DNA of 23,454 bases, from positions 1 to 23,454 of IMG/VR virus record IMGVR_UViG_3300021403_000052, one strand, 5' to 3'. Under the pieces are notes generated by a model that had not been told where the DNA came from, searched no databases, and saw only the letters and a program-made list of their open reading frames with translations. This stretch comes from a virus. Below, piece after piece: positions 1,522 to 18,088 of this stretch. How positions within the stretch are numbered: the stretch's first letter is position 1; the number at the start of each line of letters is the position of its first letter. Position numbers and translations under genes: made by a program.

Positions 1522-1539
1522 AATATCATCCTTGATATT
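1522..1539 (-). promoter_or_regulatory. SD-in-loop hairpin before tail fibre gene
   Basis: On the minus strand AATATC-AAGGAT-GATATT forms a perfect 6-bp stem with a hexaloop that holds the SD AAGGA. The closing pair is C-G and the loop reads ANGGAN, which is the form bound by CsrA/RsmE-type regulators. It is one of several such hairpins before late genes. Function is inferred. Confidence 0.55.
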
Positions 1540-1557
1540 TAGTGTTTCAATTATACA

Positions 1558-2124
1558 TTAGCTTTCCGACAAACTCCATTCTTCGATGGGAAGTATCAAA
1601 TCATCTTCTGGCAATAGTTTTAGTCTCTTAAGTGCTTTTTTGTCTTGTATGTAATTGTTGTATTGGAGTTGGGTTTCTAGGGGAAAAGAACAAGACCCTT
1701 CTTTATGTTTTAAAGAAAGAGATGTTTTCTTATATAGCCCTCCCCTACTAGTGTTCAATTTCTGATAGGGGACGCCTACTAGTGTCGAACTTTTATACTG
1801 TTCTCTTTTTATTCTATTTCCTACTAGTGTCAAAATTCTGGACAATATTCTTCCGCGCTTAAATTTTCTATTTGATGTAAGACCTATACGCTCAATCAGC
1901 CTATATTTTTCAAGTTTATTCAATGCATCAAAAACTGTGGTTCTATGAAAACCAGTTATTTCTGATAACTTCATAGCTGAATAGGGAAAGGGCTTGTCAT
2001 TTCTAATAAGAAAACCTAGAAGCTTATAAAATACTGATCTTTCTACTCCTGAAAGTTTTAGACGTTTATATGCGATTTCAAAGACAAGACCATTTAAAGA
2101 CTTGGTTGTTTTGTAGGTGCTCAT
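1558..2124 (-). CDS. Winged-helix DNA-binding protein, lambda-O-like replication initiator or regulator
   Basis: The 188-aa product has an N-terminal winged helix (about 20-90): a helix around 'GVERSVFYKLL', a helix-turn-helix around 'MKLSEITGFHRTTVFDALNKLEKYRLIERI', then a basic stretch (RKFKRGR). The rest (about 95-188) is low-complexity and basic, ending in an acidic tail. This layout matches phage and plasmid initiators whose N-terminal HTH binds iterons lying inside their own gene, as lambda O does. Three copies of ACACTAGTAGG lie in codons of the middle region. The gene sits between the gp16-like ejection gene and the tail gene, where P22 carries its immI regulatory region, so a regulator is the main alternative. 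It is transcribed separately from the late operon, since a strong terminator lies upstream. No clear SD precedes the ATG at 2124. Confidence 0.6.
   Translation of the reverse strand: MSTYKTTKSLNGLVFEIAYKRLKLSGVERSVFYKLLGFLIRNDKPFPYSAMKLSEITGFHRTTVFDALNKLEKYRLIERIGLTSNRKFKRGRILSRILTLVGNRIKREQYKSSTLVGVPYQKLNTSRGGLYKKTSLSLKHKEGSCSFPLETQLQYNNYIQDKKALKRLKLLPEDDLILPIEEWSLSES
1744..1830 (-). repeat. Three iteron-like direct repeats inside the HTH gene
   Basis: CCTACTAGTGT on the plus strand (ACACTAGTAGG on the minus strand) occurs exactly at 1744-1754, 1775-1785 and 1820-1830, with start-to-start distances of 31 and 45 bp. Two copies are read as 'TLVG' and the third in another frame as 'NTSRG', so the conservation is at DNA rather than protein level. 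The repeats contain ACTAGT, and the DNA between and beside them is AT-rich. They are candidate initiator or repressor binding sites, possibly the replication origin. Confidence 0.6.
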
Positions 2125-2160
2125 TTGATATACTTTTCCCGTTCTTGATGGAACAACCTG

Positions 2161-2196
2161 AAAGCCGAGCGGGCGCTAACCCATATGTTCGGCTTT
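2161..2196. other. 8-bp inverted repeat in leader of HTH gene
   Basis: AAAGCCGA (2161-2168) and TCGGCTTT (2189-2196) are perfect complements with a 20-nt loop. On the plus strand a U-rich run follows, so it could end rightward transcripts. On the minus strand it lies in the untranslated leader of the HTH gene, where no T-run follows. Role unknown. Confidence 0.4.
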
Positions 2197-2237
2197 ATTT
2201 TTATTTATGGATTGTACGTTGATGCTAAATTAAAGGC

Positions 2238-2264
2238 AAAAAAAATCCCGAAGGTTCGGGATTT
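2238..2264 (-). terminator. Intrinsic terminator ending the late operon
   Basis: On the minus strand a 9-bp stem (AAATCCCGA / TCGGGATTT) with a 4-nt loop is followed directly by eight T residues. It lies just downstream of the 20-aa ORF and the 574-aa ejection gene, and upstream of the HTH gene. It should separate late virion transcription from the HTH/tail unit, unless an antiterminator acts here. Confidence 0.85.
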
Positions 2265-2281
2265 ATAAACAACAACAAATA

Positions 2282-2344
2282 CTATTTAGACAAATGCAAA
2301 TACACCCAATAGGCACCAAATATTGCAGACAAAATTAATAACAT
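2282..2344 (-). CDS. 20-aa hydrophobic micro-protein
   Basis: This short ORF has an ATG preceded by a good SD (TTGGAGTTAACATG). It encodes 20 residues, nearly all hydrophobic and enough for one membrane span, ending His-Leu-Ser-Lys. It lies between the gp16-like ejection gene and the operon terminator, so it would be the last late cistron. It could be a small membrane or lysis-accessory peptide. The SD and composition support translation, but the length makes the call tentative. Confidence 0.4.
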   Translation of the reverse strand: MLLILSAIFGAYWVYLHLSK

Positions 2345-2393
2345 GTTAACTCCAATTAGTTTGTCATAAGAATATTATATTTATAGCCATATA

Positions 2394-4118
2394 TCAATCA
2401 TTATGTGCAGTAAATATCTTCCCAATTAAATATTTTAATCCCTGTGCTCCAAGAGTACCAGCAGCAGCGCCACCAACAAGCTTTGTTCTTGTTGACAATT
2501 GTTCTTCATAATTTTTTCGTTCCCGTCCTATTTTTGTTGTTTTCTTATTCATTCTACCAATTGCATTTTTATATCTATTTGCCATATAAACAATATGTTC
2601 TAATTTTTGTTTCTCTTCAGCTTTTAATAAGCCGGATGTAACCTTATCATGCAAAAGAGAATTTATTTTTGCAATTTTTTTATCAAAATCCTGACCTGTT
2701 AAAGGATTTTTCTTTCCTTCAGTCACATGTCCAAGTAAGGCTTTTTTGAAATCTTGAGATCCAAACAAATATTTTCTTACAGCTTCATTTTCAGGTTGTA
2801 GCAACTCTCTGTAGAAACTGTCAGATATTTTTCCTAGCTTTGTATCTGATCTCCAAGCCTTAGCAAAGGTTGGATTATATTTTATAGGAGCGCCAACCGT
2901 TTCATATACCTTGTTTATTTTAGCAAACTTCTTTGCTTCTTCAGGTGTCATTGTTCCTTCAACCCTAGAAGTTGCGTCTTGAGAAACTTTTTGTAACTTT
3001 CTTCCTGTGTCTAAAAGGCTTTCTTTCTCACCTTGAGTTAGGTTTTGGCTTTTGGCTTTCTTAAATGCTAATCCTGAAGCATCGCGTGTTTCTCGCATGA
3101 ACCTAATATAATCTTGAAGTTTTGAATTCTTGGCTGGCACTTCTATTTCATATGGGTTTCCAGCCTCATCCAATATATTTGAGAATTTTATCTTAGGACT
3201 GATCCCTTCAGCCTCTTTAATGGTGCTTCTCGGAACACCTGCTATATCAGACATTTGATTATGAAGTTCATGTAATTCATAAGGATTTTTTATTGGTTTT
3301 TGACCTATTTTCCCTTGTCCGTATTCCCCATATGATTTTTCAAAATATGAATTCAATTTCTTCTTGCTGCCGCCAAAAGCTTCAGACAACGCTTTTGCAG
3401 TGTCCACGAAATGCTCTTGAGGCAAAATACCTCCTGCTTTTTCAGTGGCTTTTTGTTCAAATTGCTCGCCTTTGCCTGTAATACGGCTAAGAGACTCCAA
3501 TAGTTTAGTTTCATATTCCTTGAGGTTCTTAAGAGATTCTGATGGCCTGGTCATCCAGTTATAGGCATCTTTGACACCCCTCATAGCCATGGGAATGGCA
3601 CTTCCTGCTGCACCTAATGTTGTGCCTAGCAAAGAGTTATCAGGGTCTGCCTCAAGCCCCCCAATGATGCCACCAGGAACAACCGTTTGTGCTGCTCGCA
3701 TTGAAGGAGAAGCGCCTTTTGCTACAAATGCTTCCGATCCGGCAACTGGAATTGCAAATGGAGATATGAAGTTTCCAACATCCTTGCCAAATTGTCCTGC
3801 GGTGCTTTCAGGGGCATATCTATTAAAATCAGCTCTAGGTACTTTGTAATCGCTTTTTTTCCCTGTCCATGCTTCATATCCCTTGATAAATGGATAGTGC
3901 AAGCCTTGAGCTACATTTGCCCCTATATCGCTTAGACCATGTGCTATTCCAGGAAAAAGACCCATTTCGTAATCGGCAACGTTTTTAAAAAAACCCTGTT
4001 GTTTTTCAGGTGCTGGCATCCCTTCAAGCTGACTAAGCAAGTTTGGATCAGTTACTTCTGAATTTAACTTATTTAGTAGTTCTGGATCGGTAACTTCCTT
4101 TTTTACTTTTCGTACCAT
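2394..4118 (-). CDS. Large ejection/internal virion protein (P22 gp16-like by position)
   Basis: The 574-aa product has the expected size (P22 gp16 is about 609 aa) and is the last of three ejection-type genes. An acidic N-terminus contains a short tandem repeat, 'EVTDPELLNKL' then 'EVTDPNLLSQL' (about 8-31). Gly/Ala-rich semi-hydrophobic stretches follow (about 45-185: 'GIAHGLSDIGANVAQGL', 'GGIIGGLEADPDNSLLGTTLGAAGSA'), then a long charged, Lys-rich helical region (190-545) and a C-terminal hydrophobic 'GGAAAGTLGAQGLKYLIGKIF'. Such soluble proteins with membrane-active segments are delivered into the host envelope during DNA entry. The start at 4118 has SD AAGGA and overlaps the gp20-like gene by 16 nt. 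I see no lytic transglycosylase motif. Assignment rests on synteny and composition. Confidence 0.6.
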   Translation of the reverse strand: MVRKVKKEVTDPELLNKLNSEVTDPNLLSQLEGMPAPEKQQGFFKNVADYEMGLFPGIAHGLSDIGANVAQGLHYPFIKGYEAWTGKKSDYKVPRADFNRYAPESTAGQFGKDVGNFISPFAIPVAGSEAFVAKGASPSMRAAQTVVPGGIIGGLEADPDNSLLGTTLGAAGSAIPMAMRGVKDAYNWMTRPSESLKNLKEYETKLLESLSRITGKGEQFEQKATEKAGGILPQEHFVDTAKALSEAFGGSKKKLNSYFEKSYGEYGQGKIGQKPIKNPYELHELHNQMSDIAGVPRSTIKEAEGISPKIKFSNILDEAGNPYEIEVPAKNSKLQDYIRFMRETRDASGLAFKKAKSQNLTQGEKESLLDTGRKLQKVSQDATSRVEGTMTPEEAKKFAKINKVYETVGAPIKYNPTFAKAWRSDTKLGKISDSFYRELLQPENEAVRKYLFGSQDFKKALLGHVTEGKKNPLTGQDFDKKIAKINSLLHDKVTSGLLKAEEKQKLEHIVYMANRYKNAIGRMNKKTTKIGRERKNYEEQLSTRTKLVGGAAAGTLGAQGLKYLIGKIFTAHND

Positions 4119-5482
4119 TTTCCATTTTCCTTAACATAAGTTTTTCCATTTATAATTTTTTCATCTTCGATCTCTTCAGATTCATTGCCATGATGCATAT
4201 TCTGTTCATGCTCAAATTGCTTATCAGGATCAAAGTAATAATCTTGCGTCGCAGGAATGCTTTTTAATGCTTTCTTTTCAGCTTTGTTTAGTTCTTGTTG
4301 CCATCTCATGCCTGCTTTTAAGTTAGCACTCGCAGGAACGAGGCCTTCTTTGATCCATTTTTTAATTCTTGCAGAAACATCATCGGCCTTTAAAGATTCC
4401 GCATATCTATTGTAGGTCTGGTTGGTTCTTCCTGCTTGGAACCTAGAGGCCTCTGAAACAGTTGTATTTGTTAATGCTTTATCTGCTACCAAAAGATCAT
4501 CAATCATTTTTGCTGACTTTTTATCCGTATTATATTTTCTTGCAGCCTCTTCCATCTTAAAAGTAGCTCCTGGCCCTGAAAATGGTGCGGCTCCTTTAAA
4601 AGCCAAAGGATATAATGAATTAAATAACGAAATATTCTTAGCAGATTCTTTTTGCTTTTCGGTAGTCTGTTTTTTAAATCCTATTGTTTGACCTGTATTT
4701 GGATCTTTAATTTCTGTGTCGCCTGGTTTTAACCCATTTAGTTGACGGTGTCTAATATCTGATAAATCTTCTTGTCTTTGGGACTTGGCTTTTTCTATGG
4801 CTTCAGCTTGTTTAACTACTGTACTATTTTCACCGTATTGTTGTTTTAATCTAAGCATACTTTCCGCATCACGAGCGCTTCCTGTTAGTGCTGCTTCCTT
4901 GTTCGTAGGAGGTGTCAGTCCGGCTTGCTTATAAAACATGGCCTTCATAAAATCATCTTTATTTATTCCAAAAGGCAATTGTTGACCAGTAGGTTGTGGT
5001 GATGGTTCTGGTTGAGGAGCAAACATTCCTTGTCCACCAGGTGTAAATTCTTCTTTAGGATTGCTCCTTAAAAGTTGTTCTGCAAATGAAGTTGGTGCTT
5101 CTGTCTTTGGTTCTGCAACAGTAGAACCAACATTATTTCTTTTGTCACTAAAATAATCATTCATCATATCTTGATAAAATTTAGCTTGTTTTGCCTTGGA
5201 TAATTGCGCATCATATTGAGCCTGTAACATCTGCCTTCTTAATGGCAATAGAGAAAGCTCTCCTTGCTTTCCTTGTAATGTAGCCGCCTCTTGTTGCATA
5301 GCATATTTTGCCTTCGCCTCATTTATCTTATTAGCAAGCTCTTTCCCAAACTCAGTATTTTGATGTGTGCGTGGCATATATCCCAACTCCATCCCTTGCT
5401 TAATGGCAGACATATAATCAGGAACAGAAGACTTTAGTGGATTATCACCCACAATATTAGGCAAATTAAATTGAATTGCCAT
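4103..5482 (-). CDS. Ejection/internal virion protein (P22 gp20-like by position)
   Basis: The 459-aa product compares with about 471 aa for P22 gp20 and occupies the same place between gp7-like and gp16-like genes. It begins 'MAIQFNLPNIVGDNPLKSS'. An Ala/Gln/Lys-rich probable coiled coil follows (about 45-110), then a Pro/Gln-rich linker (about 150-170, 'PQPEPSPQPTGQQ'), a mixed helical region, and an acidic, His-containing C-terminus with an 'NGKTYVKENGKWYEK' tail. It starts at 5482 after a GGGAGG SD, sharing that base with the end of the upstream gene. Function as a pilot protein is inferred from context. Confidence 0.55.
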   Translation of the reverse strand: MAIQFNLPNIVGDNPLKSSVPDYMSAIKQGMELGYMPRTHQNTEFGKELANKINEAKAKYAMQQEAATLQGKQGELSLLPLRRQMLQAQYDAQLSKAKQAKFYQDMMNDYFSDKRNNVGSTVAEPKTEAPTSFAEQLLRSNPKEEFTPGGQGMFAPQPEPSPQPTGQQLPFGINKDDFMKAMFYKQAGLTPPTNKEAALTGSARDAESMLRLKQQYGENSTVVKQAEAIEKAKSQRQEDLSDIRHRQLNGLKPGDTEIKDPNTGQTIGFKKQTTEKQKESAKNISLFNSLYPLAFKGAAPFSGPGATFKMEEAARKYNTDKKSAKMIDDLLVADKALTNTTVSEASRFQAGRTNQTYNRYAESLKADDVSARIKKWIKEGLVPASANLKAGMRWQQELNKAEKKALKSIPATQDYYFDPDKQFEHEQNMHHGNESEEIEDEKIINGKTYVKENGKWYEK

Positions 5483-6174
5483 TAGTGACCTCCCATGTTT
5501 CCAAGGAGTTTCAAGATGTCTTGATGATTAGAATAGTCGCCATATCCAGACAAGGCCGAACTTGCGCCTCCAAAGATGTTTTTCCAGGAGTTGGCGCTGT
5601 TTTCATTTTCTTGGTTCTTGGCACCATACGCCATGTTTGCTTTTTGGCCTGTAATGTTTGCAAGCATATTTGCATAATCTGTATTTGCACCATATCCTTG
5701 GTTTTCTATGCCTTGCTCCCCGCTTAACCCTGCTCCATATAGACCCATGACGTGGTTTAAATAGTCCTCAAAGTCTTTGCTATGGAGATCCATGGCCTTA
5801 TCAGCCGAGTACTGTTGGTGCTGCATAGATCCTGCCATGCCACCTGCGGCTTGTGCGTTTGTAATCTCGCGCATGGCTTCCTCTAGGCGAGATTTATACC
5901 CTGGAGACTCCTTATATCCTGCTGCAAACTTGTCATACATGGCATTGGGATCGCCAATCAATTTATCATATTCACTTTTTGTTTTAGTAAGCGCATCATT
6001 GCCAGCATTCATATAAGGCTGATAATAAGGATTCATCTGGCTTGGGATATTGTTAAGATAAGGATTGGCCGCATTCATAGGCGCATTTGCGCGTTTCTTG
6101 TTTCCAAATAGACCAAACAAGCCTCCTGCGGCTGACATAAGCCCTGGGGCCATGGACAATAGTGCTGGTAACAT
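5482..6174 (-). CDS. DNA-transfer/ejection protein (P22 gp7-like)
   Basis: I place the start at the ATG at 6174, which has a strong SD (AAGGAGCGTGAAATG), rather than at an upstream in-frame ATG at 6228. The product is then 230 aa, essentially the length of P22 gp7 (229). The N-terminus is hydrophobic and Gly-rich (residues 1-25, 'LLSMAPGLMSAAGGLFGLFG') and ends in a basic patch, as in phage ejection proteins that insert in membranes. The middle is rich in Asn, Tyr, Gln, Ala and Met, with a helical 'SRLEEAMREITNAQAAGG' segment. It is the first of three ejection-type genes in P22 order. Confidence 0.65.
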   Translation of the reverse strand: MLPALLSMAPGLMSAAGGLFGLFGNKKRANAPMNAANPYLNNIPSQMNPYYQPYMNAGNDALTKTKSEYDKLIGDPNAMYDKFAAGYKESPGYKSRLEEAMREITNAQAAGGMAGSMQHQQYSADKAMDLHSKDFEDYLNHVMGLYGAGLSGEQGIENQGYGANTDYANMLANITGQKANMAYGAKNQENENSANSWKNIFGGASSALSGYGDYSNHQDILKLLGNMGGH

Positions 6175-6184
6175 TTCACGCTCC

Positions 6185-6490
6185 TTATGAATGTAGCACG
6201 TTCTTAAATGTTGGCACTCCGGCCACATATATACAGACCATCAACTGGTCTGTGTCTGTATTATAAATCAATGTTCCCCTCTGGCAGGTAAACTCACCTT
6301 GAGGGTTTGTGCCATTTTGTATAATCAATATATTAGCAGAATTCTGGGCTGGAGGCACCAAGCCCTCATCACTCGTGACCGACTGCAATGACTGCACTAA
6401 GTTCTGTCTAAACTGGTATTCAGGGGCTGTAGGATTTCCTTGTTCGTCTGTCATCGGGCTAACAGGCAAATCAGGGATGTTGGTTGGCAT
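6185..6490 (-). CDS. Small virion-associated protein of unknown role
   Basis: This 101-aa protein lies between the gp10-like and gp7-like genes, where P22 encodes the tail needle gp26 and gp14, but it is much shorter than either. The N-terminal half is polar, with 'APEYQFRQNLVQSLQSV'. The C-terminal half has a beta-like 'CQRGTLIYNTDTDQLMVC' motif that resembles adhesin or fibre-tip repeats (GTL-YN-TD-L-V). The start at 6490 has SD AAGGA seven nt upstream. A small tail-tip or minor structural protein is a reasonable guess; no specific function is claimed. Confidence 0.5.
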   Translation of the reverse strand: MPTNIPDLPVSPMTDEQGNPTAPEYQFRQNLVQSLQSVTSDEGLVPPAQNSANILIIQNGTNPQGEFTCQRGTLIYNTDTDQLMVCIYVAGVPTFKNVLHS

Positions 6491-6499
6491 AAAATTTCC

Positions 6500-8122
6500 T
6501 TATAAATAGGCCAAGACTTCACCAGGGCCTACAACATAACGGCTAAATCCTTCAAATTGTAGTCGGGCTGTAAAGTCGTTCGCGCGTCCCAACCTCTGGA
6601 ATATAAACCTTGATTTGCGTCTTCCGGTCAAGTTCATATTGAGCGATACACTGTTCCCATAGGTTTCTCCACCATCACGCGATATGGCCAAAAATACTTC
6701 CATGTTACGTGTTACAGTACCACTCATACTATTAAATGAATTTTCAGTGACCATCTCATTTAGGCCATCTTCTGTAAGCATCCGTACTTCAGTAATTTCT
6801 GTAATCATGTATTCGGGGAATGTCGTATTGTCAAAATTGGGCTGTCCTTGTTCTATGGTAAAGCCAAGGCTTCTGAAGATAAGTGGACGCTGTGAAGGGA
6901 GCCTTATTGGTGAGCAAATTCTAACGCGCGGTATTACGCCAAACATATTTTGATATTGGTAAGTGGTAAATTGCGTACCAAAGGCATAAAGATTGCCATC
7001 ATTAAAGCTTACAAAATAATAAGTATTGTTAAAGAATACTATCTTTCTTGCTGGATGATAATTTTCGTTCTCATCTGTAATCGTGAAAAACTTATTATTA
7101 GTAAGGTCTAATGCAAGAGTAAGTTTGTCTGTCTTAAAAGTAAGCTGATAAAAAAGATGGCCATCGAGTTTGACCAAAAAACCACTACAGTCTTCTGGGG
7201 CCTTAAGCGTTGAAAAGAGATAATCTATGCCGTCGGTTGAGACTTCAGTTATATCAGCGCCTGTTGTATACATGATGACGGGACCCGCTTCCTCGCTTAT
7301 CCCGACCCATACAATATAGTTGCCTTGATATGCGATAGAACTTGGGTTGATACACCCATAGTCTATGCTAATGGAGTTGTTGCGTGTCCATGGGAACAAT
7401 GCGCCACCTGTAAACGTCCATTGCTCGGCGACTGTGTTCCCCATCACAAAGGTCATGTTTCCACGTCCTGGCATTGGTACTACGGCTTGAACAGTATCTG
7501 GTTTTGTTGTTAGTTGTCCAATGTATGGTGGCAATGTTGGCCATATAAGGCCATTGCTTGGAAGTGACAACCTCCATTCTGGAGTTCCTAATGATGCTAC
7601 AATAAAATAGGTGTTTTGAAATGACAAGAAACCTGGTTTAAAATCTAAGGGTATTAATGTTTGTGTTGGCGTCAATTGTGTGGCACTTTGCGCTATGCTA
7701 AATATTGCAGTTTTCTGGTCATAAATATAAATATGTAGGCCATCAGAGAAAGCCACTTGTCCGGCCGTGTTCTCGGCAATAAAGACCTCTCCTGTTGTAG
7801 TAGTTAGGTTTCCAACAAATTGAGGAACAAGTGCTTCATTAAAGTAGACGACTTCTGCACCAACAACCGCATAAAGCCTGTTAAATACTGTGGAGGTATG
7901 GTCGCCCCTGCCTTCACCGGATGATGCTATTTGCTGGATGAACATGAACCCTGCATAGTCAACCAAAAAGCCATCACTAATCATCATATTGAATGTTTGT
8001 GATTGGTTTATTTTGGGATATCTGCCATAGGTGTTGCTTCCCACTATGTCGATTGGGATCTCAAACAATCCTTGTGAGTTCATAGGCGCTAGAGGACTAG
8101 CGCGTGTCCCTTCGTCTGCCAT
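6500..8122 (-). CDS. Packaged-DNA stabilisation protein, P22 gp10-like tail hub
   Basis: The 540-aa protein resembles the P22 gp10 family of tail accessory factors, which form the hub under the portal-gp4 channel and hold packaged DNA (P22 gp10 is about 472 aa). Recognisable features are an N-terminal 'FEIPIDIVGSNTYGRYPKINQSQTFNM' stretch (about 20-46), repeated propeller-like beta segments ('RLYAVVGAEVVYFN', 'DGLHIYIYDQ', 'NTYFIVAS'), and a C-terminal beta domain with 'RKSRFIFQRLGRANDFTARLQFEG'. The order gp4-like, gp10-like, gp7-like matches P22. Its SD lies in the loop of a 6-bp hairpin that abuts the ATG. Two small membrane-protein genes separate it from the gp4-like gene, unlike P22. Confidence 0.8.
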   Translation of the reverse strand: MADEGTRASPLAPMNSQGLFEIPIDIVGSNTYGRYPKINQSQTFNMMISDGFLVDYAGFMFIQQIASSGEGRGDHTSTVFNRLYAVVGAEVVYFNEALVPQFVGNLTTTTGEVFIAENTAGQVAFSDGLHIYIYDQKTAIFSIAQSATQLTPTQTLIPLDFKPGFLSFQNTYFIVASLGTPEWRLSLPSNGLIWPTLPPYIGQLTTKPDTVQAVVPMPGRGNMTFVMGNTVAEQWTFTGGALFPWTRNNSISIDYGCINPSSIAYQGNYIVWVGISEEAGPVIMYTTGADITEVSTDGIDYLFSTLKAPEDCSGFLVKLDGHLFYQLTFKTDKLTLALDLTNNKFFTITDENENYHPARKIVFFNNTYYFVSFNDGNLYAFGTQFTTYQYQNMFGVIPRVRICSPIRLPSQRPLIFRSLGFTIEQGQPNFDNTTFPEYMITEITEVRMLTEDGLNEMVTENSFNSMSGTVTRNMEVFLAISRDGGETYGNSVSLNMNLTGRRKSRFIFQRLGRANDFTARLQFEGFSRYVVGPGEVLAYL

Positions 8123-8140
8123 TTAACCGTCCTTGGTTAA
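8123..8140 (-). promoter_or_regulatory. SD-in-loop hairpin before gp10-like gene
   Basis: On the minus strand TTAACC-AAGGAC-GGTTAA is a perfect 6-bp stem with a hexaloop holding the SD. It abuts the ATG at 8122. The core CAAGGACG fits the CANGGANG form of CsrA/RsmE sites. Role inferred. Confidence 0.6.
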
Positions 8141-8153
8141 TTCAACTACTTAA

Positions 8154-8342
8154 TTAAACAATCCACCTAAACCCATGCGCCATAAGCCCCAATAGGCTAA
8201 AAAAACCTGTTCCCATCAAGCCTAACATCCATTTCTGAGTAGACTCAATGCGCTCAAGTGTTTTTTCAATCTCTATGTCTTTCTGCTTAATCAATTCTAT
8301 GTCCAGTTGTTCTCTGGTATATAACTCACTACTACCGTTCAT
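8154..8342 (-). CDS. Small single-span membrane protein, XhlA/holin-like
   Basis: This 62-aa protein has a charged helical N-terminal half with Glu/Lys/Ile heptads ('IELIKQKDIEIEKTLERIEST', about 15-35), then a tryptophan and one membrane span (about 40-55, 'LGLMGTGFFSLLGLMAHGF'). That layout is typical of XhlA-type and other small phage holin-associated proteins. It starts 2 nt after the upstream membrane-protein stop codon, so the two are probably co-translated. No endolysin lies beside it, so a lysis role is only a guess. Confidence 0.5.
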   Translation of the reverse strand: MNGSSELYTREQLDIELIKQKDIEIEKTLERIESTQKWMLGLMGTGFFSLLGLMAHGFRWIV

Positions 8343-8343
8343 T

Positions 8344-8742
8344 TTATTGCCTTTTTCCTGCTTCTAAAATTGGCATTCCGGCTTCTGTTGGAATGTATAT
8401 TACCTTGTCATTGGTATGTTGCAATGAATCAATCCACAAGTATCTTAAATACCCTTCATTGCCCTTGAGGCTTTCACCAATTATTTTGTTGGCCAGAGCC
8501 ACACCTTTTGCGCGTTCTACTTCTGCGGCAGCGAGCATAATAGCAGCATCTTTTTTGGCTTCTGCTTCCCGTACTACAATTTTCCGGTTCCACTCGGCAC
8601 GCTTTAATTCAGCTTCGCCTTTTAGTGCAGATGACCATAAATTGTACTTTGCATAACATCCGCCAATACAAAAACAAAACAATACTATTGCTATTACAAG
8701 CGCCAAAAACCCAATTATCATGTGTTTTAAATCATCGTCCAT
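8344..8742 (-). CDS. Membrane-anchored coiled-coil protein resembling the C-terminal part of SPFH/prohibitin
   Basis: The 132-aa product has one N-terminal membrane span (about 8-30, ending in a Cys-rich 'FCFCIGGC'). An Ala/Glu/Lys coiled coil follows (about 42-85, 'REAEAKKDAAIMLAAAEVERAKG'), then 'ANKIIGESLKGNEGYLRYLWIDSL' and 'VIYIPTEAGMPILEAGK'. The second half closely resembles the stalk and C-terminus of band-7/prohibitin proteins, but the globular SPFH domain is absent. Phage proteins of this kind are known, with unclear function. SD AAGGG precedes the ATG. It sits with the 62-aa membrane protein inside the tail-hub genes, suggesting an envelope role late in infection. Confidence 0.65.
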   Translation of the reverse strand: MDDDLKHMIIGFLALVIAIVLFCFCIGGCYAKYNLWSSALKGEAELKRAEWNRKIVVREAEAKKDAAIMLAAAEVERAKGVALANKIIGESLKGNEGYLRYLWIDSLQHTNDKVIYIPTEAGMPILEAGKRQ

Positions 8743-8790
8743 TTAAGACCCTTATATGTTGTTGAATTTCAACGAATCATATCATAACTT

Positions 8791-9495: not shown

Positions 9496-9511
9496 ATTTC
9501 CTCCCCTCAGC

Positions 9512-10915: not shown

Positions 10916-10924
10916 TTGTGCCCC

Positions 10925-10958: not shown

Positions 10959-10982
10959 GTGGCTTTTAAGCCAGTATTAGAC

Positions 10983-12317: not shown

Positions 12318-12372
12318 TGCAATTCCTCTCCATGTGAATTTACTTCACAAAGAGTGAACCGCATGGCTATGC

Positions 12373-13107
12373 CTATTTGAATTTCTTGACTAATAAACGC
12401 CTCAAGTCTTCCTGTGACATGTCATGCTGGCTCATCTCCTTGTTGCCAGATGTTGTCGAGGACTTAATTTGTGACATCGGATCTCGAGCACGAACCTCTT
12501 CATCTTTCGCTGTTTGGTTCGTCTTTATGGAATCACTTAAACTTTTCAATGCTTTCTGTGCTTGATATGGCTGGTTGTGCGCCATGTTTAACAACGACTC
12601 CATCTTGGAGGGGTTGTCTAGCACTTCTTTCATTATGTCCCCTGTGTTCTCCATTTGGTTTGCCATAGCAATAAAGGAGTGCATCCTAGGATCATTATAG
12701 TTTAAATTGTTAAGTTCCTGCTCTAAGCCAGGGTGTTGTTGTTCAGCAGCCTGCATCTTTTGAACAAATGTATTTACCATTTGGTCTTGTTGCAGCTTCT
12801 GTACATGCTGTTGTAAGGCAAGAGGTGCGCGCTCAGAAATCATGCGCTCAATATCAGCCTGGGACATTTGCGCCATCCCACCTAGTTGCTGTGGTGCTGG
12901 TGCTTGTTGTTCAGGCGCTTGTGGCGCTTGTTGCTGTAGTTCCATTAAAGCCTCTCTCTTCCCTCGTTCATATGCTTTTGCCTTTTCGCGATCCACGACC
13001 TTTTTTACAACGTCACTTGGAAACGATTTTTTCGGCTGTTCACCTTCAGGCTTAGCATCTGCAACAGGCTCTACATCCTGGATTACATCCTCTAAATCTT
13101 CTGTCAT
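12373..13107 (-). CDS. Capsid scaffolding protein (P22 gp8-like)
   Basis: The 244-aa protein lies directly before coat. It is highly charged and Gln-rich with no hydrophobic core: an acidic N-terminus ('MTEDLEDVIQDVEPVADA'), a Lys/Arg helix (about 28-52), a Pro/Gln/Ala linker (about 58-75) and helical Gln/Met-rich segments. A basic C-terminal helix ends 'RRLLVKKFK'. P22 scaffold (303 aa) binds coat through just such a basic C-terminal helix-turn-helix. The start at 13107 has SD GAGGA inside a small hairpin. A sigma70 promoter about 110 bp upstream should serve this gene and coat. Confidence 0.75.
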   Translation of the reverse strand: MTEDLEDVIQDVEPVADAKPEGEQPKKSFPSDVVKKVVDREKAKAYERGKREALMELQQQAPQAPEQQAPAPQQLGGMAQMSQADIERMISERAPLALQQHVQKLQQDQMVNTFVQKMQAAEQQHPGLEQELNNLNYNDPRMHSFIAMANQMENTGDIMKEVLDNPSKMESLLNMAHNQPYQAQKALKSLSDSIKTNQTAKDEEVRARDPMSQIKSSTTSGNKEMSQHDMSQEDLRRLLVKKFK

Positions 13108-13120
13108 AAATCCTCTTTAT
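13106..13120 (-). promoter_or_regulatory. SD-in-loop hairpin before scaffold gene
   Basis: On the minus strand ATAAA-GAGGA-TTTAT is a 5-bp A/U stem with the SD GAGGA as its loop. The stem includes the first two bases of the start codon, so folding would directly block initiation. The stem alone is weak. Confidence 0.45.
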
Positions 13121-13133
13121 CGACTTTTATAAG

Positions 13134-13165
13134 CGGTGTCACCGTGAAATCATCGTTACGTAACG
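13134..13165. promoter_or_regulatory. Palindromes in scaffold leader (possible operator)
   Basis: CGTTACGTAACG (13154-13165) is a perfect 12-bp palindrome. CGGTG-T-CACCG (13134-13144) is a second perfect inverted repeat. Both lie between the promoter at 13215-13243 and the scaffold ATG, so they may be protein-binding sites on DNA or structures in the leader RNA. Confidence 0.4.
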
Positions 13166-13214
13166 TGTAAAGAATCGGCCAGGTTCGCGTGTGGCGACGT
13201 GAGTTACTAACTTT

Positions 13215-13243
13215 ATTATACGCAATACTTTGTTTTACTACAA
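13215..13243 (-). promoter_or_regulatory. Sigma70 promoter for scaffold and coat
   Basis: On the minus strand TTGTAG (13243-13238), a 17-bp spacer and a perfect TATAAT (13220-13215) form a strong promoter within the late cluster. It lies in the only sizeable non-coding gap there (13108-13379), about 110 bp upstream of the scaffold start. It would raise scaffold and coat expression above that of upstream genes. The remainder of the gap holds no convincing gene. Confidence 0.75.
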
Positions 13244-13379
13244 GTTGATGATGATTGGCAGGAATTGCACCTACTATACCCAACGTATTTACTAATGTCC
13301 CTACCCAGGATTAAGTATGGCCTTATGCAAAGCCTTTTTGTTTGGATCCGCTTCACTGTCAGCAGCGCAATCATCATAA

Positions 13380-13466
13380 TTACTTCATACAATCTTTTTT
13401 CACCATCTTTTTAACAAGCTTCTTGTCTTCTTTCACATCAGGATGTTTCTTGGATTCTTTCTTCAT
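13380..13466 (-). CDS. 28-aa lysine-rich phage mini-protein
   Basis: This ORF of 28 residues has 12 lysines, starts 'MKKESKKHPDVKEDKKLVKK' and ends 'CMK'. A GGGAG SD lies ten nt upstream of the ATG. It overlaps the end of the previous gene by 29 nt. The 'HPD-ED--L-KKMVK' pattern is familiar from tiny basic proteins in other phages, which supports its being real. Function unknown. Confidence 0.55.
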   Translation of the reverse strand: MKKESKKHPDVKEDKKLVKKMVKKDCMK

Positions 13467-13626
13467 GATAATAACGCTCCCATTCAGTAGTAGCATAATA
13501 TAACTCTCTTGATATCTCTAAGGCCATTATGCGATAACTTTGCCAATTGGCTTTGGATTCAAGCTTTCCCAGGTCTTGTATGACTTCTCTTACTCTGTTT
13601 TTAAACCATTCATGTCTAGGCAGCAT
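13438..13626 (-). CDS. Small charged protein of unknown function
   Basis: I prefer the ATG at 13626, giving 62 aa. It overlaps the previous stop as TAATG and has an AAGGG SD; an in-frame ATG at 13644 would add six residues. The protein is helical and charged ('MLPRHEWFKNRVREVIQDLGKLES'), with aromatic residues in 'ELYYATTEWERYYHEER'. No recognised domain. It belongs to the chain of tiny late genes between portal and scaffold. Confidence 0.55.
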   Translation of the reverse strand: MLPRHEWFKNRVREVIQDLGKLESKANWQSYRIMALEISRELYYATTEWERYYHEERIQETS

Positions 13627-13769
13627 TACTTTTTCCCTTTGCATGAGTTCATCTCTTTCATTTTGCCATGGTGCTTTTTAGCTTCTTTCAAGTGGTGCTC
13701 TGCCTCTTTTACTTTTGCCATTGCCTCTTTTTTATGATGCATGTGCATTTTTTTATGGTCTTCTTTCAT
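13626..13769 (-). CDS. 47-aa His/Lys/Met-rich mini-protein
   Basis: The 47-residue product is extraordinarily rich in Lys, His, Met and Glu ('MKEDHKKMHMHHKKEAMAKV' at the N-terminus, 'KKHHGKMKEMNSCKGKK' at the end). It probably forms a single helix. The SD AAGGA is presented in the loop of a 6-bp hairpin just before the ATG. Clustered His and Met suggest possible metal or nucleic-acid binding, but this is only composition. Confidence 0.6.
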   Translation of the reverse strand: MKEDHKKMHMHHKKEAMAKVKEAEHHLKEAKKHHGKMKEMNSCKGKK

Positions 13770-13770
13770 T

Positions 13771-13788
13771 GTTATTTTCCTTAATAAC
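13771..13788 (-). promoter_or_regulatory. SD-in-loop hairpin before 47-aa His/Lys-rich gene
   Basis: On the minus strand GTTATT-AAGGAA-AATAAC is a perfect 6-bp stem with an AAGGAA hexaloop (ANGGAN). It is one base upstream of the ATG at 13769 and overlaps the stop codon of the 64-aa gene. Confidence 0.55.
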
Positions 13789-13975
13789 CTAATGGATCAA
13801 ATCCACCTTTGTTTCTTCGGACAATGTCCTTCCCTTTTTTCTCATAAAGTAGCTTTCCTTCTTTATCTCTCATCTTTAGTCTTTCTTCATGAAGTTCTTT
13901 ATAGGGATCGTTTGCCATTTCCTTTATTTTCTCTTTTGCATTAGAGAGTTTTTTTTCTATGGCTTCCAGGATCAT
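13781..13975 (-). CDS. Small basic helical protein
   Basis: The 64-aa product is mostly a charged helix ('MILEAIEKKLSNAKEKIKEM', then 'ELHEERLKMRDKEGKLLYEKK') with a basic 'RRNKGGFDPLGY' tail. The start overlaps the upstream stop as ATGA, so translation is likely coupled. No family recognised. Confidence 0.6.
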   Translation of the reverse strand: MILEAIEKKLSNAKEKIKEMANDPYKELHEERLKMRDKEGKLLYEKKGKDIVRRNKGGFDPLGY

Positions 13976-14115
13976 TTCATGCCCCTTTGTTCTTTGTACT
14001 GATTCTTGTATTTCTTGTCTTTAAGGTCTTTTTCAGCACGTTTTTCCGTACGTCCCTCATTGTTTTCGTTCTTTGTACTACGCTTGCACTTATCAGACAT
14101 TTTTTGGTAGGTCAT
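13972..14115 (-). CDS. 47-aa highly basic mini-protein
   Basis: I place the start at the ATG at 14115, which has a clear SD (AAGGAG, seven nt spacing). The longer in-frame ORF up to 14223 would overlap the neighbour and has no SD. The 47 residues are nearly all charged or polar (Lys, Arg, Glu, Asn), without a hydrophobic core, so the product is probably disordered or nucleic-acid bound. It ends with an ATGA overlap into the 64-aa gene. Confidence 0.55.
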   Translation of the reverse strand: MTYQKMSDKCKRSTKNENNEGRTEKRAEKDLKDKKYKNQYKEQRGMK

Positions 14116-14131
14116 TTTGCCGCTCCTTGGT

Positions 14132-14347
14132 TTATTGATTGCGATCCTTTCGCATCTTTGCTTTGTACTTAACATCTTCGGTTTGCTTAGTCTTTCCTCG
14201 TTTGCGCTCTTCAATGGCCTCACGTTTTCCTACGGTGAGCGGGTCAACCACTGGCATCTCTTTTCTTTTTATTGGCTTGCCGGAAGTGCCCCCTTCCTTC
14301 ATTGGCTTTTTGGCCTTTGGCTTTGGTTTCATTGACTCGTAGGCCAT
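14132..14347 (-). CDS. 71-aa Lys/Pro-rich basic protein
   Basis: The product begins 'MAYESMKPKPKAKKPMKEGG', continues with Lys/Arg-rich disorder-prone sequence and ends 'KAKMRKDRNQ'. The ATG at 14347 has a GGAG SD seven nt upstream. The first 104 nt overlap, in another frame, the 3' end of the 111-aa gene. The extreme basicity suggests DNA or RNA binding. No family recognised. Confidence 0.55.
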   Translation of the reverse strand: MAYESMKPKPKAKKPMKEGGTSGKPIKRKEMPVVDPLTVGKREAIEERKRGKTKQTEDVKYKAKMRKDRNQ

Positions 14348-14579
14348 TCCCTTTCTCCGTTAGATTGACAAGATACTTATTAATTTCTACTAAAAAATTG
14401 TGCATTATATCGTGCTGTTCTTCAAGCAATTTTATTCGGCCAGAAAGCTTTTGGTTTTCCAAGAAGGACTTGTTTGCATGGTGCTTTGCTTCACAGAGTT
14501 GGTTTGTTATAAACCAATAATCTTTATGCATTTGCCTTTGGTAGCGTTGCGCAAGATATGCTTTAATTCTTTTTATCAT
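14244..14579 (-). CDS. Coiled-coil small protein with basic tail
   Basis: The 111-aa product has a helical N-terminal part (about 1-75; 'SFLENQKLSGRIKLLEEQHD' looks coiled-coil) and a Lys/Arg/Gly-rich disordered tail (about 76-111). The start ATG overlaps the previous stop as ATGA. The tail region is also read in another frame by the 71-aa gene. The helical part has no known relatives that I can name. Confidence 0.55.
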   Translation of the reverse strand: MIKRIKAYLAQRYQRQMHKDYWFITNQLCEAKHHANKSFLENQKLSGRIKLLEEQHDIMHNFLVEINKYLVNLTEKGNGLRVNETKAKGQKANEGRGHFRQANKKKRDASG

Positions 14580-14719
14580 TTCTTTTTCTTCTTTCCGCGT
14601 CTTGCTTCCGAGTATGCAATTGCCACAGCCTGCTTTTGTGGCTTTCCAGCTGAAATTTCTGCCTTAATGTTGTTTTTAAACCCTGGGCTTCCAGGTTTTG
14701 CGCCTTTTGTTAGTGGCAT
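14576..14719 (-). CDS. 47-aa basic phage mini-protein with 'GKPQKQAVAIA' motif
   Basis: This 47-residue ORF reads 'MPLTKGAKPGSPGFKNNIKA', then 'EISAGKPQKQAVAIAYSEAR' and a poly-Lys end. The 'GKPQKQAVAIA' pattern is one I recognise from tiny proteins common in phage genomes, so the gene is very likely real despite its length. An AAGGAAG SD lies within the end of the upstream gene. Function unknown; the basic tail suggests nucleic-acid contact. Confidence 0.7.
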   Translation of the reverse strand: MPLTKGAKPGSPGFKNNIKAEISAGKPQKQAVAIAYSEARRGKKKKK

Positions 14720-14720
14720 T

Positions 14721-14903
14721 TTATTTCTTCCTTATTTTTCCAAGGGTTTCGGCAAGATTTGCACGTTTGCGCTCAAGGGGGTTCTTGCTGTGCGCGGCCT
14801 TAGCAAGCTTCTTGGCGGGTATTTTCTCTCCAATAGGCACATGTAACTCTTTATGTAAGGCGCCTTTTTTTATGTGCATCTTCTGTATGAATTTCTCGGC
14901 CAT
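14721..14903 (-). CDS. 60-aa basic phage mini-protein ('KKGALHKEL...AKAAHSKNP')
   Basis: The 60-aa protein has 'MHIKKGALHKELHVPIGEK' followed by 'IPAKKLAKAAHSKNPLERKR' and a basic C-terminus. This pattern recurs in small proteins of many tailed phages, usually near head genes. The ATG at 14903 has a GGAG SD seven nt upstream; the internal Met at residue 9 lacks one. It overlaps the upstream gene by 53 nt in another frame. Function unknown. Confidence 0.65.
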   Translation of the reverse strand: MAEKFIQKMHIKKGALHKELHVPIGEKIPAKKLAKAAHSKNPLERKRANLAETLGKIRKK

Positions 14904-15060
14904 CTTCGTTCTCCATCACATTGTGTTTAACGCTATCAATTTCAGCTATAAGCATATGCCGCAATCGCTTAATTGTAAGCTTTGGTTCATCTTCAATAAG
15001 TTTTGCAATAGCATTAAGTGTGCCTATGTACATAGCGTACTCGGCCTTGGTCAAGTCCAT
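14851..15060 (-). CDS. Small helical protein of unknown function
   Basis: The start at 15060 (SD AAGGAAGGG) gives 69 aa and overlaps the upstream stop as TGATG; a start at 15102 has no SD. The protein is helical ('MDLTKAEYAMYIGTLNAIAK', then 'PKLTIKRLRHMLIAEIDSVK') with a charged tail. No family recognised. Confidence 0.6.
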   Translation of the reverse strand: MDLTKAEYAMYIGTLNAIAKLIEDEPKLTIKRLRHMLIAEIDSVKHNVMENEDGREIHTEDAHKKRRLT

Positions 15061-15263
15061 CAAACCCTTCCTTGCAATATATTTTGAATAAGATTCATGC
15101 AATTAGGATGCAATTTATCAAGCTTCTTTTTAAATTCATATAGATATGCAATTGCTTGTTGCATATCTTCCTCTTCTGATCGGTTCCATCTTGATTCTGT
15201 AGGATATGCCAGTCTTTCCTGTGCGCATTGTGCAGCAGCTTCTGTATTTAAATTATGTAGCAT
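15060..15263 (-). CDS. Small helical protein of unknown function
   Basis: I choose the ATG at 15263 (SD AGGGAG, within a 5-bp hairpin), giving 67 aa; the in-frame ATG at 15314 lies inside the upstream gene without an SD. The sequence has 'EAAAQCAQERLAYPTESRWN' and 'QQAIAYLYEFKKKLDKLHPN', suggesting a helical hairpin. No known domain. Confidence 0.6.
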   Translation of the reverse strand: MLHNLNTEAAAQCAQERLAYPTESRWNRSEEEDMQQAIAYLYEFKKKLDKLHPNCMNLIQNILQGRV

Positions 15264-15264
15264 T

Positions 15265-15477
15265 TTAAAACTCCCTAGTTTGTTTCCCATAACGTGTTTC
15301 AAGATTACGCTCATAGAGGCGTTTCATCAACTTATTGCGATCGTTATTACTAATGCCATCAGTATGGCGAAACATAGCATCATGTATAGTATGTCGGTCA
15401 TGTCCCATTGCCTCCAATCGTTCAACGCCGCCGCGTTGGTCCAAGTCATTCGCTGTTATCTTGTACTTGCTCGGCAT
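15265..15477 (-). CDS. Small polar protein of unknown function
   Basis: The 70-aa protein begins 'MPSKYKITANDLDQRGGVER' and contains 'MGHDRHTIHDAMFRHTDGIS' and a basic end. The ATG at 15477 has a GGAGG SD nine nt upstream. The sequence pattern (ADL-RGG-ERL-AMGH) could be a small helix-turn-helix-like fold, but no domain is certain. It overlaps the 66-aa membrane gene by 32 nt. Confidence 0.6.
   Translation of the reverse strand: MPSKYKITANDLDQRGGVERLEAMGHDRHTIHDAMFRHTDGISNNDRNKLMKRLYERNLETRYGKQTREF
15268..15281 (-). promoter_or_regulatory. SD-in-loop hairpin before 67-aa gene
   Basis: On the minus strand AAACT-AGGG-AGTTT is a perfect 5-bp stem whose loop carries most of the SD AGGGAG. It lies five nt upstream of the ATG at 15263. 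Confidence 0.4.
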
Positions 15478-15646
15478 AGCGTGAATCCTCCATGGTAAAT
15501 AGTTGTTTTTGTAATGCTTGATAGTTTGTTTTTAGTGATTTAATGCTTAAATGCATGTTAAACATACATAAACAAGCGGCTAACAATGCGTATGTCATTA
15601 ATACTAAGATTACATCTTTATATTTATTCTTTTTTTCCAGGTTCAT
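15446..15646 (-). CDS. Small single-span membrane protein
   Basis: The 66-aa product has a basic N-terminus ('MNLEKKNKYKD'), one membrane span (about 12-33, 'VILVLMTYALLAACLCMFNM') and a short polar coiled segment ending in an acidic tail. By the positive-inside rule the N-terminus would be cytoplasmic. The layout is like a small inner-membrane spanin or holin accessory, but no partner is visible. SD AAGGAAG precedes the ATG, and the gene overlaps the end of the portal gene by 23 nt. Confidence 0.6.
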   Translation of the reverse strand: MNLEKKNKYKDVILVLMTYALLAACLCMFNMHLSIKSLKTNYQALQKQLFTMEDSRYAEQVQDNSE

Positions 15647-17807
15647 TTTTTACTTCCTTTATCTTGTGGTGTAATTCCACAGTCTTTCTAATAGACTCAT
15701 GATGATCCATCTTCTGCTTGTGCTCGATATCAGCCATTTTGGCTGCTGCATCCAGGCTATGCGCTACAATCTCAGCTTGTGCCTTTTCACGTTGTACGGC
15801 GGCTGTAACCTCGGATTGCTCGGCCTCATGCTGGACAAGGATGGCCTCGTTCTGGACTTTTTCCTGTTCTAGTGCAAGCTCTGCCATCTTGATTTGCTGG
15901 TCAAAGTGCTGTTGGTCGCCCTTCATTTCAAGTTCATGGGCTTCCAGTTCAACCTTATGAACATCTGTTTGAGCTTTGATCATCCTAGGGTCGTTTTGCA
16001 TCATCTGTTGCTGCATTTGCATCATCTGGGCTTGTTGTTGTTTCTGTTGCTCCATCCATTGGGCAGCGGCCTCTTTAAGCCTATCTGCACCATATATTGT
16101 TAGGTTGTCCAGGAGTATAGGCAAGCCAAAGTCACTACTAAAGAACTCTGCCAATTTTGGATTGGCTTGGGTCAATCCTATGATAGACTCCAATGCGCGG
16201 TTCTTTTCAACCTGGAAGTTCACGCCTGCATCAATCTGAACCTTTATGGCACCCTGTTCGTAGTTGATTGCAGGTTTTCCAGGGGCGTTGATGTCTTGAT
16301 AAATCCTGTCCCCTGCTTTGTTTACTACTGGTATGGTTCTTCGCCCTAGCAAATACTTTGGCATAAGGTCAACATGTATTCTCGCCATCTGTTCAAGGCC
16401 AGCCAGATACCCAATTGTATATGGCATGCCAGCCGCGTTGTCTGCATTCGAGGCCTCTATTATAGCCTTGCCTGATATATAATCGTGTGCATTTTCGGGG
16501 TTTGATGCACCACTACCTAAGATGGCTTGTATAAACTGTATTGACTGATTAAAAGTACCCATGACCTCTGGAGGAAGCGCTGGATATTGCACTTCGCGAA
16601 TAGGTGTAGGTATGGGCTTATCGGGATTGTTTTCGCTATATGCGCGTACGACAATCGTGCTACAGGTCTGAGGGTTGGTCAGGTTGTTTATATAGTCTTG
16701 CTGCTGGGGAATGGCCTCTTCCATGACGATAAACTTGGAGCTAGACAGGTTGTCTGTTGAGTTGGTTATAGCAATACCCATGAAGTTCATCATGTCTTGC
16801 GCACCTTTGGCATGATAATAATAGGGCTTTGTGAACTGGTATGAGGTATTGGTATGTCCTTTGCACAGAATGTCACTGTTTCCGTCAAAGAACACGTGAG
16901 GAAGATAACAGTAGTCGGTGTCGCTTTCTTCTAATATTTGGTCACGGATAAACTTAGTATTGTGCAGAACATCGATAACGGTCATGCGACTTGCTACAAT
17001 CTCAGGAATTTGCTCAATGATGTTGTTATCATCCCAGTATTTCTGTAACTTCTCATAGTTCTTTGCGGTCATGACCTTACCATCAGCGAGCTTGACTATT
17101 TTGACACGCTTTTTCACTTTTTCGTACATATCGCATACAAGGATTACGATATTGTCGTACATATCTTTATATGACCATTGATAAGACTCTATGAAGGTCG
17201 CATCTGCTTTCTCGGACAAGCTCACCTTCGGGAATTGTTGCTTCAAGTCTTCGGCAATCACGGGATACATCTCAAAACTGTAACTTCCGTCGCCTTTATG
17301 GGGAGCTCGAGCCAATGGGTCAAAGCCTACCATCGTCGCATCAAAGCACTTCTCCCAGAATATATCCTGATTTAGGCTCATTGGAGATTGAAAGTCTGTA
17401 TATACCTTGGCCGCTGAGAATCCCCCGCCTAGCATGTCTTTATAGACCTCGTTGCCAAAGCTGTTCTTGTTAGCATCATGGATTTTATGACGAATATTGC
17501 CCTCAACGGTCTGTATGACCTCATCAGGGATTGGAACGCCTTCGCTAGGTGTGACCATAATAGATGGCTCATGCATTGCGAATTCACCAAGCTTTCGGGA
17601 TACGCTAGCCGCGCCTAGGTTAAATTCTAACTGCGGGCGATTTAAGGAGGTCAACATACCTTTTTGCTGTTCGTTCAGGGTTTCTCGGAATGTATAGTGT
17701 TTGAAGTCACGGAAGCGTTGACAGTTATCTTTGAAATATATGTAGGATGATTCTACGCGTTTGCATAATAAGTGTAGTTTTTCGCCTTCACTGGCTTTCA
17801 TGGTCAT
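15624..17807 (-). CDS. Portal protein, P22 gp1-like
   Basis: The 727-aa protein matches the P22 portal in length (725 aa) and lies after the large terminase gene as expected. The body contains 'LNRPQLEFNLGAASVSRKLGEF' type sequence, Trp/Tyr-rich beta regions and 'GSGASNPENAHDYISGKAI'. A Gln/Met-rich stretch (about 590-612) is followed by a long Ala/Glu/Lys/Gln coiled coil (about 615-720), equivalent to the C-terminal barrel extending into the P22 capsid. It forms the dodecameric DNA channel and docks the terminase. The ATG at 17807 has its SD AGGAC in a 7-bp hairpin loop. Confidence 0.85.
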   Translation of the reverse strand: MTMKASEGEKLHLLCKRVESSYIYFKDNCQRFRDFKHYTFRETLNEQQKGMLTSLNRPQLEFNLGAASVSRKLGEFAMHEPSIMVTPSEGVPIPDEVIQTVEGNIRHKIHDANKNSFGNEVYKDMLGGGFSAAKVYTDFQSPMSLNQDIFWEKCFDATMVGFDPLARAPHKGDGSYSFEMYPVIAEDLKQQFPKVSLSEKADATFIESYQWSYKDMYDNIVILVCDMYEKVKKRVKIVKLADGKVMTAKNYEKLQKYWDDNNIIEQIPEIVASRMTVIDVLHNTKFIRDQILEESDTDYCYLPHVFFDGNSDILCKGHTNTSYQFTKPYYYHAKGAQDMMNFMGIAITNSTDNLSSSKFIVMEEAIPQQQDYINNLTNPQTCSTIVVRAYSENNPDKPIPTPIREVQYPALPPEVMGTFNQSIQFIQAILGSGASNPENAHDYISGKAIIEASNADNAAGMPYTIGYLAGLEQMARIHVDLMPKYLLGRRTIPVVNKAGDRIYQDINAPGKPAINYEQGAIKVQIDAGVNFQVEKNRALESIIGLTQANPKLAEFFSSDFGLPILLDNLTIYGADRLKEAAAQWMEQQKQQQAQMMQMQQQMMQNDPRMIKAQTDVHKVELEAHELEMKGDQQHFDQQIKMAELALEQEKVQNEAILVQHEAEQSEVTAAVQREKAQAEIVAHSLDAAAKMADIEHKQKMDHHESIRKTVELHHKIKEVKNEPGKKE

Positions 17808-17808
17808 G

Positions 17809-17827
17809 GCTTAAAGTCCTTTTAAGC
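17809..17827 (-). promoter_or_regulatory. SD-in-loop hairpin before portal gene
   Basis: On the minus strand GCTTAAA-AGGAC-TTTAAGC is a perfect 7-bp stem with the SD in the 5-nt loop, one base upstream of the ATG at 17807. With one less pair the loop is AAGGACT, again holding ANGGA. Confidence 0.6.
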
Positions 17828-17831
17828 GTTT

Positions 17832-18074
17832 CTAATATCTTTTTATTAAATCCAATATAGGTTTTAAGTATTCTTTGACTCTTTCTTCTGTAGCTGCCTG
17901 TCCTAGTGGAAAATATGCAGACGATCCATCCTTATATTTTATGCTTAACATCCATCCACCGAGCAAGTAGGGGCAATTCTTTTTGTTTGCTTTATAGTAA
18001 TAGCAATCTTCAAGGTCTGCATGATTAAGTAAAGCATCTATATCAAAGTCATCTGTTATTGTCTGTCCAAACAT
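17832..18074 (-). CDS. 80-aa protein of unknown function between terminase and portal
   Basis: The start is taken at 18074, with SD AAGGA, because the longer frame to 18146 overlaps the large terminase. The 80-aa product has acidic 'TDDFDIDALLNHADLEDC', then 'YYYKANKKNCPYLLGGWMLS' and a Lys-rich helical end. No known domain. Its position suggests a packaging accessory role, which is only inference. Confidence 0.55.
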   Translation of the reverse strand: MFGQTITDDFDIDALLNHADLEDCYYYKANKKNCPYLLGGWMLSIKYKDGSSAYFPLGQAATEERVKEYLKPILDLIKRY

Positions 18075-18088
18075 TAAAATCCTTTTAA
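18074..18088 (-). promoter_or_regulatory. SD-in-loop hairpin before 80-aa gene
   Basis: On the minus strand TTAAAA-GGA-TTTTAA is a perfect inverted repeat centred on the SD GGA, and it includes the A of the ATG. The upstream CGCTTAAAAGGA context is shared with the portal leader. Confidence 0.45.

Follow-up and report, generated by a model that had tools for sequence, protein, structure and literature searches.

What are the inverted repeats that surround the Shine-Dalgarno (SD) sequences of a phage's late genes, and what would bind there? The question is raised by a stretch of viral DNA of 23,454 nucleotides (IMG/VR record IMGVR_UViG_3300021403_000052, positions 1 to 23,454), which we call the window. 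Judged by its genes, this 23.5 kb is part of a P22-like podovirus. The original prediction saw in its late leaders a set of hairpins presenting the SD in the loop, and proposed that these are CsrA/RsmE sites. Computation shows that SD-centered hairpins are present far above chance, that they are restricted to late genes, and that their pairing is conserved. We think it probable, at about 60%, that translational operators of the CsrA/RsmE type are dispersed over the late genes.

Hairpins in the late leaders of the window

Five late leaders of the window contain perfect hairpins of 6-7 bp with the GGA of the SD at the center, all on the minus strand. The leader of the gp10-like gene (8123-8140) forms TTAACC(AAGGAC)GGTTAA, with the exact CANGGANG core. 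That of the tail-fibre gene (1522-1539) forms AATATCA(AGGA)TGATATT, which lies in the ANGGAN register with the loop read as AAGGAT and closed by a C-G pair; both of the cores singled out at the start fit the CsrA/RsmE hexaloop. The tail-fibre gene itself (1-1517, minus strand) runs off the window. As an ATG at 1529 would coincide in part with the SD, translation probably begins at the ATG at 1517, which follows the GGA by 11 nt. The hairpin of the 47-aa gene, GTTATT(AAGGAA)AATAAC, contains the upstream stop codon TAA and lies at 13771-13788; position 13626, by which the gene had been designated, is its 3' end. We sought an orthologue of this gene and found none outside the same phage. The portal leader (17809-17827) forms GCTTAAA(AGGAC)TTTAAGC, and the 80-aa gene leader (18074-18088) forms TTAAAA(GGA)TTTTAA in a register one base tighter, termed register 0. 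The minimum-energy fold of the 80-aa leader is an alternative to the GGA hairpin. A weak hairpin had been noted before the 263-aa gene, and it is present with 4 bp, AATA(AGGA)TATT (10307-10318, minus strand); orthologues in G009, G021, G025, G013, G023 and G024 have forms of 5-7 bp.

Seven strong hairpins had been proposed, and the remaining two were rejected. The leader of the 67-aa gene at 15060 has a stem of only 3 bp. The scaffold leader contains ATAAA(GAGGA)TTTAT (13106-13120, minus strand), which has G at -2 and is not counted among the hairpins. The same sequence is found in nearly all close relatives, and it lies within the frame of an upstream open reading frame (ORF) ending '..FTVTPLIKVDKEDL*'; because it is invariant and inside this ORF we explain the repeat by coding constraint. 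At 13104-13283 (minus strand) there is a short frame ending '..FTVTPLIKVDKEDL' immediately before scaffold, and the DNA TCACGGTGACACCG..AGTC is kept in nearly all relatives, which suggests that the start of scaffold overlaps a small gene or element under conservation.

The minus strand carries the late genes, and six plus-strand genes at 20287-21752 belong to the other module. As had been claimed, the early leaders of the window have no hairpin of at least 5 bp. A second contig, L001 (IMGVR_UViG_3300050821_006434; 38,444 bases), is the same phage opened at a different point: its end corresponds to window 1-7122 and its beginning to window 7123-23454, and the genome is therefore circular or circularly permuted. 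The rest of this 38.4-kb genome has more hairpins before tail genes, AACCA(AGGAG)TGGTT, ATCAC(GGA)GTGAT and TGGTA(AGGA)TACCA, and one before a gene of the replication region, TAAAAC(CTAAGGA)GTTTTA.

Abundance, pairing and loop sequence across the family

Searches with portal and capsid gave about 80 related contigs; longer stretches were taken for about 25 of these, together with two chromosomal members in Legionellaceae. Chance pairing in AT-rich leaders is rejected by three nulls, namely shuffling, arm swap and GGA within genes, and also by control phages and a sample of host chromosome. We shuffled 28 late leaders of the window (the tail fibre not counted) with SD and start codon fixed. Hairpins of at least 6 bp are found in 4 of the 28 where 0.14 are expected, and there are five of at least 5 bp against 0.52, so that shuffled leaders, proposed at the outset as a means of refutation, are not as rich. 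In the strictest null, GGA-aligned leaders swap their right arms, so that position-specific composition is kept. By this comparison hairpins of at least 6 bp number 16 in the window clade, where 2.7 are expected and the highest of 200 null values is 9; there are 21 against 6.2 in other relatives lacking csrA, 5 against 1.2 in the Legionellaceae members, and 1 against 2.1 in relatives that have csrA. In 400 kb of one Legionellaceae chromosome none was found where 1.0 was expected. Nor do the control phages P22, TP901-1, HTVC019P, AP22 and BA3 have SD hairpins beyond background; there was no GGA-centered hairpin in four other phages, and a single 5-bp case in each of two.

The restriction to late genes is seen in 12 hairpin-rich genomes, where GGA-centered hairpins of at least 5 bp occur at 62 of 295 late SDs (21%), at 2 of 108 early SDs (1.9%), and at 11 of 453 AAGGA sequences in the sense strand within genes (2.4%). 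These genomes were chosen for their richness and the rates are therefore descriptive; the group tests (arm swap, registers in all csrA-minus leaders, hexaloop over all groups) are free of that selection. The stems are weak, with a median energy of -1.1 kcal/mol, and z-scores of minimum free energy for whole leaders are likewise weak because the stems are short. The case for the hairpins rests on comparative evidence rather than on these scores.

The arms of orthologous leaders turn over completely while pairing persists. We compared 98 reciprocal-best orthologue pairs in which both leaders have hairpins and the leaders differ. On average the leaders' own arms form 5.95 bp and exchanged arms 2.23 bp, where several pairs share genes and the own stems are at least 5 bp by selection. 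Clean compensatory examples are found for the tail fibre, ACGGT(AAGGAC)ACCGT against ACAGT(AAGGAC)ACTGT (a further relative has ATTATC(AGGGAC)GATAAT); for portal, GCTTAAAA(GGA)TTTTAAGC against GTTTAAAA(GGA)TTTTAAAC; and for gp10, TTAACCA(AGGA)TGGTTAA against TAGAAA(AGGA)TTTCTA (with ACTAAC(AAGGAC)GTTAGT in another). The portal hairpin is retained through compensatory changes in L005, L006, L018, L016 and L015, and is missing in L013/G004. Compensatory changes are thus frequent, and their absence, also proposed as a means of refutation, is not borne out. Together with the arm-swap null and the contrast of late with early genes they strongly support the earlier claim that stems differing in sequence are selected for structure. 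This is a clear case of a structure conserved while the sequence of its stem is fully replaced. On the capsid tree G004 (L099/L100) falls inside the window clade, and it is without hairpins at most orthologous leaders. Such concerted absence suggests a shared cause, for example the loss of a trans-acting partner.

In these hairpins the GGA lies within the loop, as it does in a CsrA/RsmE-type site. The hexaloop of RsmE determined by nuclear magnetic resonance (NMR) is ANGGAN, and the CsrA consensus from systematic evolution of ligands by exponential enrichment (SELEX) is RUACARGGAUGU, mostly in weak hairpins with no more than 4 contiguous pairs (PMC7652899). Among all 628 leaders of csrA-minus genomes, taken without selection, the ANGGAN register is used 42 times against 5.3 expected and register 0 24 times against 4.9, and the remaining seven registers are at background. 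Over all phage groups, A is present at -2 in 49 of 52 cases having a stem of at least 4 bp outside the hexaloop, compared with 49-66% among all SDs. In the enriched genomes 92% of hairpins of at least 5 bp have this A, compared with 70% of chance hairpins; at AGGA[A/C/T] sites it is found in 35/35 with a hairpin and 75/151 without (P = 9e-10, although exact P values are unreliable here, since the script that called the genes was simple and orthologues do not count as independent). The bases at -1 and +1 of hexaloop-register hairpins vary, U being the usual base at +1 in agreement with the SELEX consensus, and when -1 is C, G or T the A at -2 is retained in 5/5. As read from sequence, the loop pattern is that of the CsrA SELEX and RsmE NMR hexaloop.

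Proposed CsrA-type control and the alternatives

Each predicted operator would be a short, weak hairpin with the SD core in an ANGGA context as its loop. A dimer of the CsrA family would bind the loop, cover the SD and block binding of the 30S subunit, so that translation of virion genes would be lowered while free CsrA is high or active. Release would follow when CsrA activity drops or CsrA is titrated, for which an abundance of late mRNA or host antagonist RNAs might suffice. Activation or mRNA stabilization, also known for CsrA, would be indistinguishable here from repression. The protein had been tentatively attributed to either the host or the phage. For the window phage the partner would be host CsrA, because the phage encodes none, and some relatives would supply their own. 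The gene is present in eight relatives, always on the strand opposite to the late genes; four of the eight proteins were checked against Pfam and all pass the cut-off. Residues L4 and R44, which are critical in CsrA (PMC7652899), are kept in most, the G031 copy being divergent and the weakest. G015 and G019 have both their own csrA and hexaloop hairpins. Phages with a csrA of their own had seemed poorer in hairpins, but this opposition was rejected: it is not significant on the tree, and csrA-plus phages are mildly enriched in the strict hexaloop register (6 against 1.6, P = 0.007). The Legionellaceae genomes that hold family members also carry csrA.

Register, the near-invariant A at -2 and the distribution of csrA thus favor the CsrA/RsmE assignment, which stays a prediction, and a number of observations weigh against it. 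No csrA was found in the window phage and four close relatives, either with Pfam or with a sensitive hidden Markov model built from phage CsrAs, and most csrA-plus relatives have few hairpins. The pairs closing the loops are mostly A-U, a C-G closing pair being present in 5 of 40 hexaloop hairpins; in the window gp10 and tail fibre have it. About a third of the hairpins are in register 0, which differs from the hexaloop determined by NMR. CsrA targets often carry at least two sites, but a second ANGGA is not enriched in these leaders (0.56 against 0.63 per leader). An A at -2 extends the SD as well, and AAGGA is simply a good one. ANGGA and SD are inherently confounded, and a single A(N)GGA at an SD is hard to distinguish from SD sequence (PMC4066749).

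The main rival requires no protein. The stem would display a minimal AAGGA SD in its loop, free of pairing with other parts of a long polycistronic late mRNA, and so tune initiation without a regulator. The hairpins are indeed centered on the SD, most loops contain AAGGA, the stems are weak enough to be melted by the ribosome, and the trait is present with or without a phage csrA. However, many stems close on AGGA or GGA, leaving 3-4 loop bases and poor exposure of the SD, and in the hexaloop register the A at -2 is kept even when -1 is C, G or T. Such hairpins are lacking in the host chromosome, in control phages whose G+C content is similar, and in the early genes of the same phages. Tight closure, absence from host and control phages, and restriction to late genes make this explanation the less likely one, and we judge it unlikely.

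A different regulator, of phage or host and comparable to T4 RegA or to the coat protein of an RNA phage, might recognize the GGA-loop hairpins. The concerted presence or absence of hairpins at unlinked leaders (G004 compared with G001, G002 and G009) does suggest a trans-acting factor, but no convincing phage-encoded candidate tracks the trait across 21 genomes, the best protein family being present in 6/9 against 2/12. Moreover the loop preference already fits CsrA, and we find another regulator improbable. Finally, the repeats could be palindromes acting in DNA as operators or promoters, or chance repeats in AT-rich leaders. AT-rich palindromes are common, and the left arms are A-rich and the right arms T-rich. 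Yet the stems are unrelated between genes and between orthologues while pairing is retained, arm-swap controls that keep composition and in-gene controls are near background, and every hairpin is locked to the register of the SD. The arm-swap, register, in-gene and orthologue arm tests have already largely refuted this explanation, to which we give very little credence.

Late-gene translation may thus be under CsrA-type control in this family of small-tailed phages linked to relatives of Legionella. A more far-reaching version, which we hold tentatively and a little on the doubtful side, is that the whole late translation programme could be wired to the growth-phase switch of host CsrA by way of dozens of SD hairpins, each evolving independently, some members having taken in the regulator. 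The timing of late genes would then be tied to a life-cycle regulator of the host, and virions would be made only once CsrA activity has fallen, for instance during the transmissive phase of Legionellaceae.

The phage and its relation to known systems

Portal, head closure, terminase and capsid of the window phage match PHROG families. The P22-type markers are portal (PHROG 156, E 2e-51; 15624-17807, minus strand), the P22 gp10-like head-closure protein Hc3 (PHROG 578, E 9e-32; 6500-8122, minus strand) and terminase (PHROG 2). The order of portal, head-closure and terminase genes is of the P22 type shared with Lederbergvirus, but sequence identity to P22 is very low, and P22 is without GGA-centered SD hairpins of at least 5 bp. 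A search with the capsid protein for named phage relatives found none. The capsid family is present in 3 of 143 Legionellaceae genomes (the seed among the three), and samples of 368 Gammaproteobacteria and 398 Pseudomonadota gave no further genome with it; one copy, L151 (G164:C1), lies within a 3.3-Mb contig. L151 and L152/L153 (G162:C26) are distant members located in chromosomes of Legionellaceae, and in G162 the match to the capsid falls into two pieces.

Other features of the window are a tRNA-like gene at 21988-22058 (minus strand) with an odd two-base anticodon call, relatives having tRNA-Asn (G009) or tRNA-Gln (G019); a run of small paralogous genes at 22440-23342 (minus strand) that start MNDFTKEEL and have Cys/His pairs; and a probable HNH-type protein with repeated CxxC motifs at 10370-10942 (minus strand), inserted among the late genes, with similar HNH genes at other places in relatives. 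A search with Rfam for sponge RNAs like CsrB or RsmY/Z matched only tRNAs. A strong inverted repeat at 2243-2264, AAATCCCGA(AGGT)TCGGGATTT, is likely a terminator between the 188-aa and 574-aa genes.

The operator hairpin of RNA-phage coat protein and the operators of T4 RegA and gp43 serve phage-encoded regulators, each acting on one or a few genes. The likeness lies in phage translation controlled by a hairpin at the ribosome-binding site, as predicted here; no such phage-encoded regulator was found across the genomes compared in the window-phage family. Known sites of CsrA, RsmA and RsmE at the SD (glgC, hcnA and others) resemble the phage hairpins in the GGA loop and its ANGGA context, in the weakness of the stems, in overlapping the SD and in a common U after GGA. 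They differ in that the phage candidates recur before as many as a third of one phage's late genes with a single site per leader, are closed by A-U or U-A rather than C-G, and include register 0 versions. The open literature, subscription papers not being covered, gave us no account of phage late genes with operators of the CsrA type. Phage csrA is already known, in 30 of 2517 phages, for example Pseudomonas F116, and was catalogued with neither targets nor a function known (PMC7366521). A Pfam CsrA is likewise encoded by relatives of the window phage, but this family also offers candidate targets in its own late genes, mostly in members without csrA. The natural contrast within one family, in csrA and in hairpins, makes a role of Csr for the phage directly testable.

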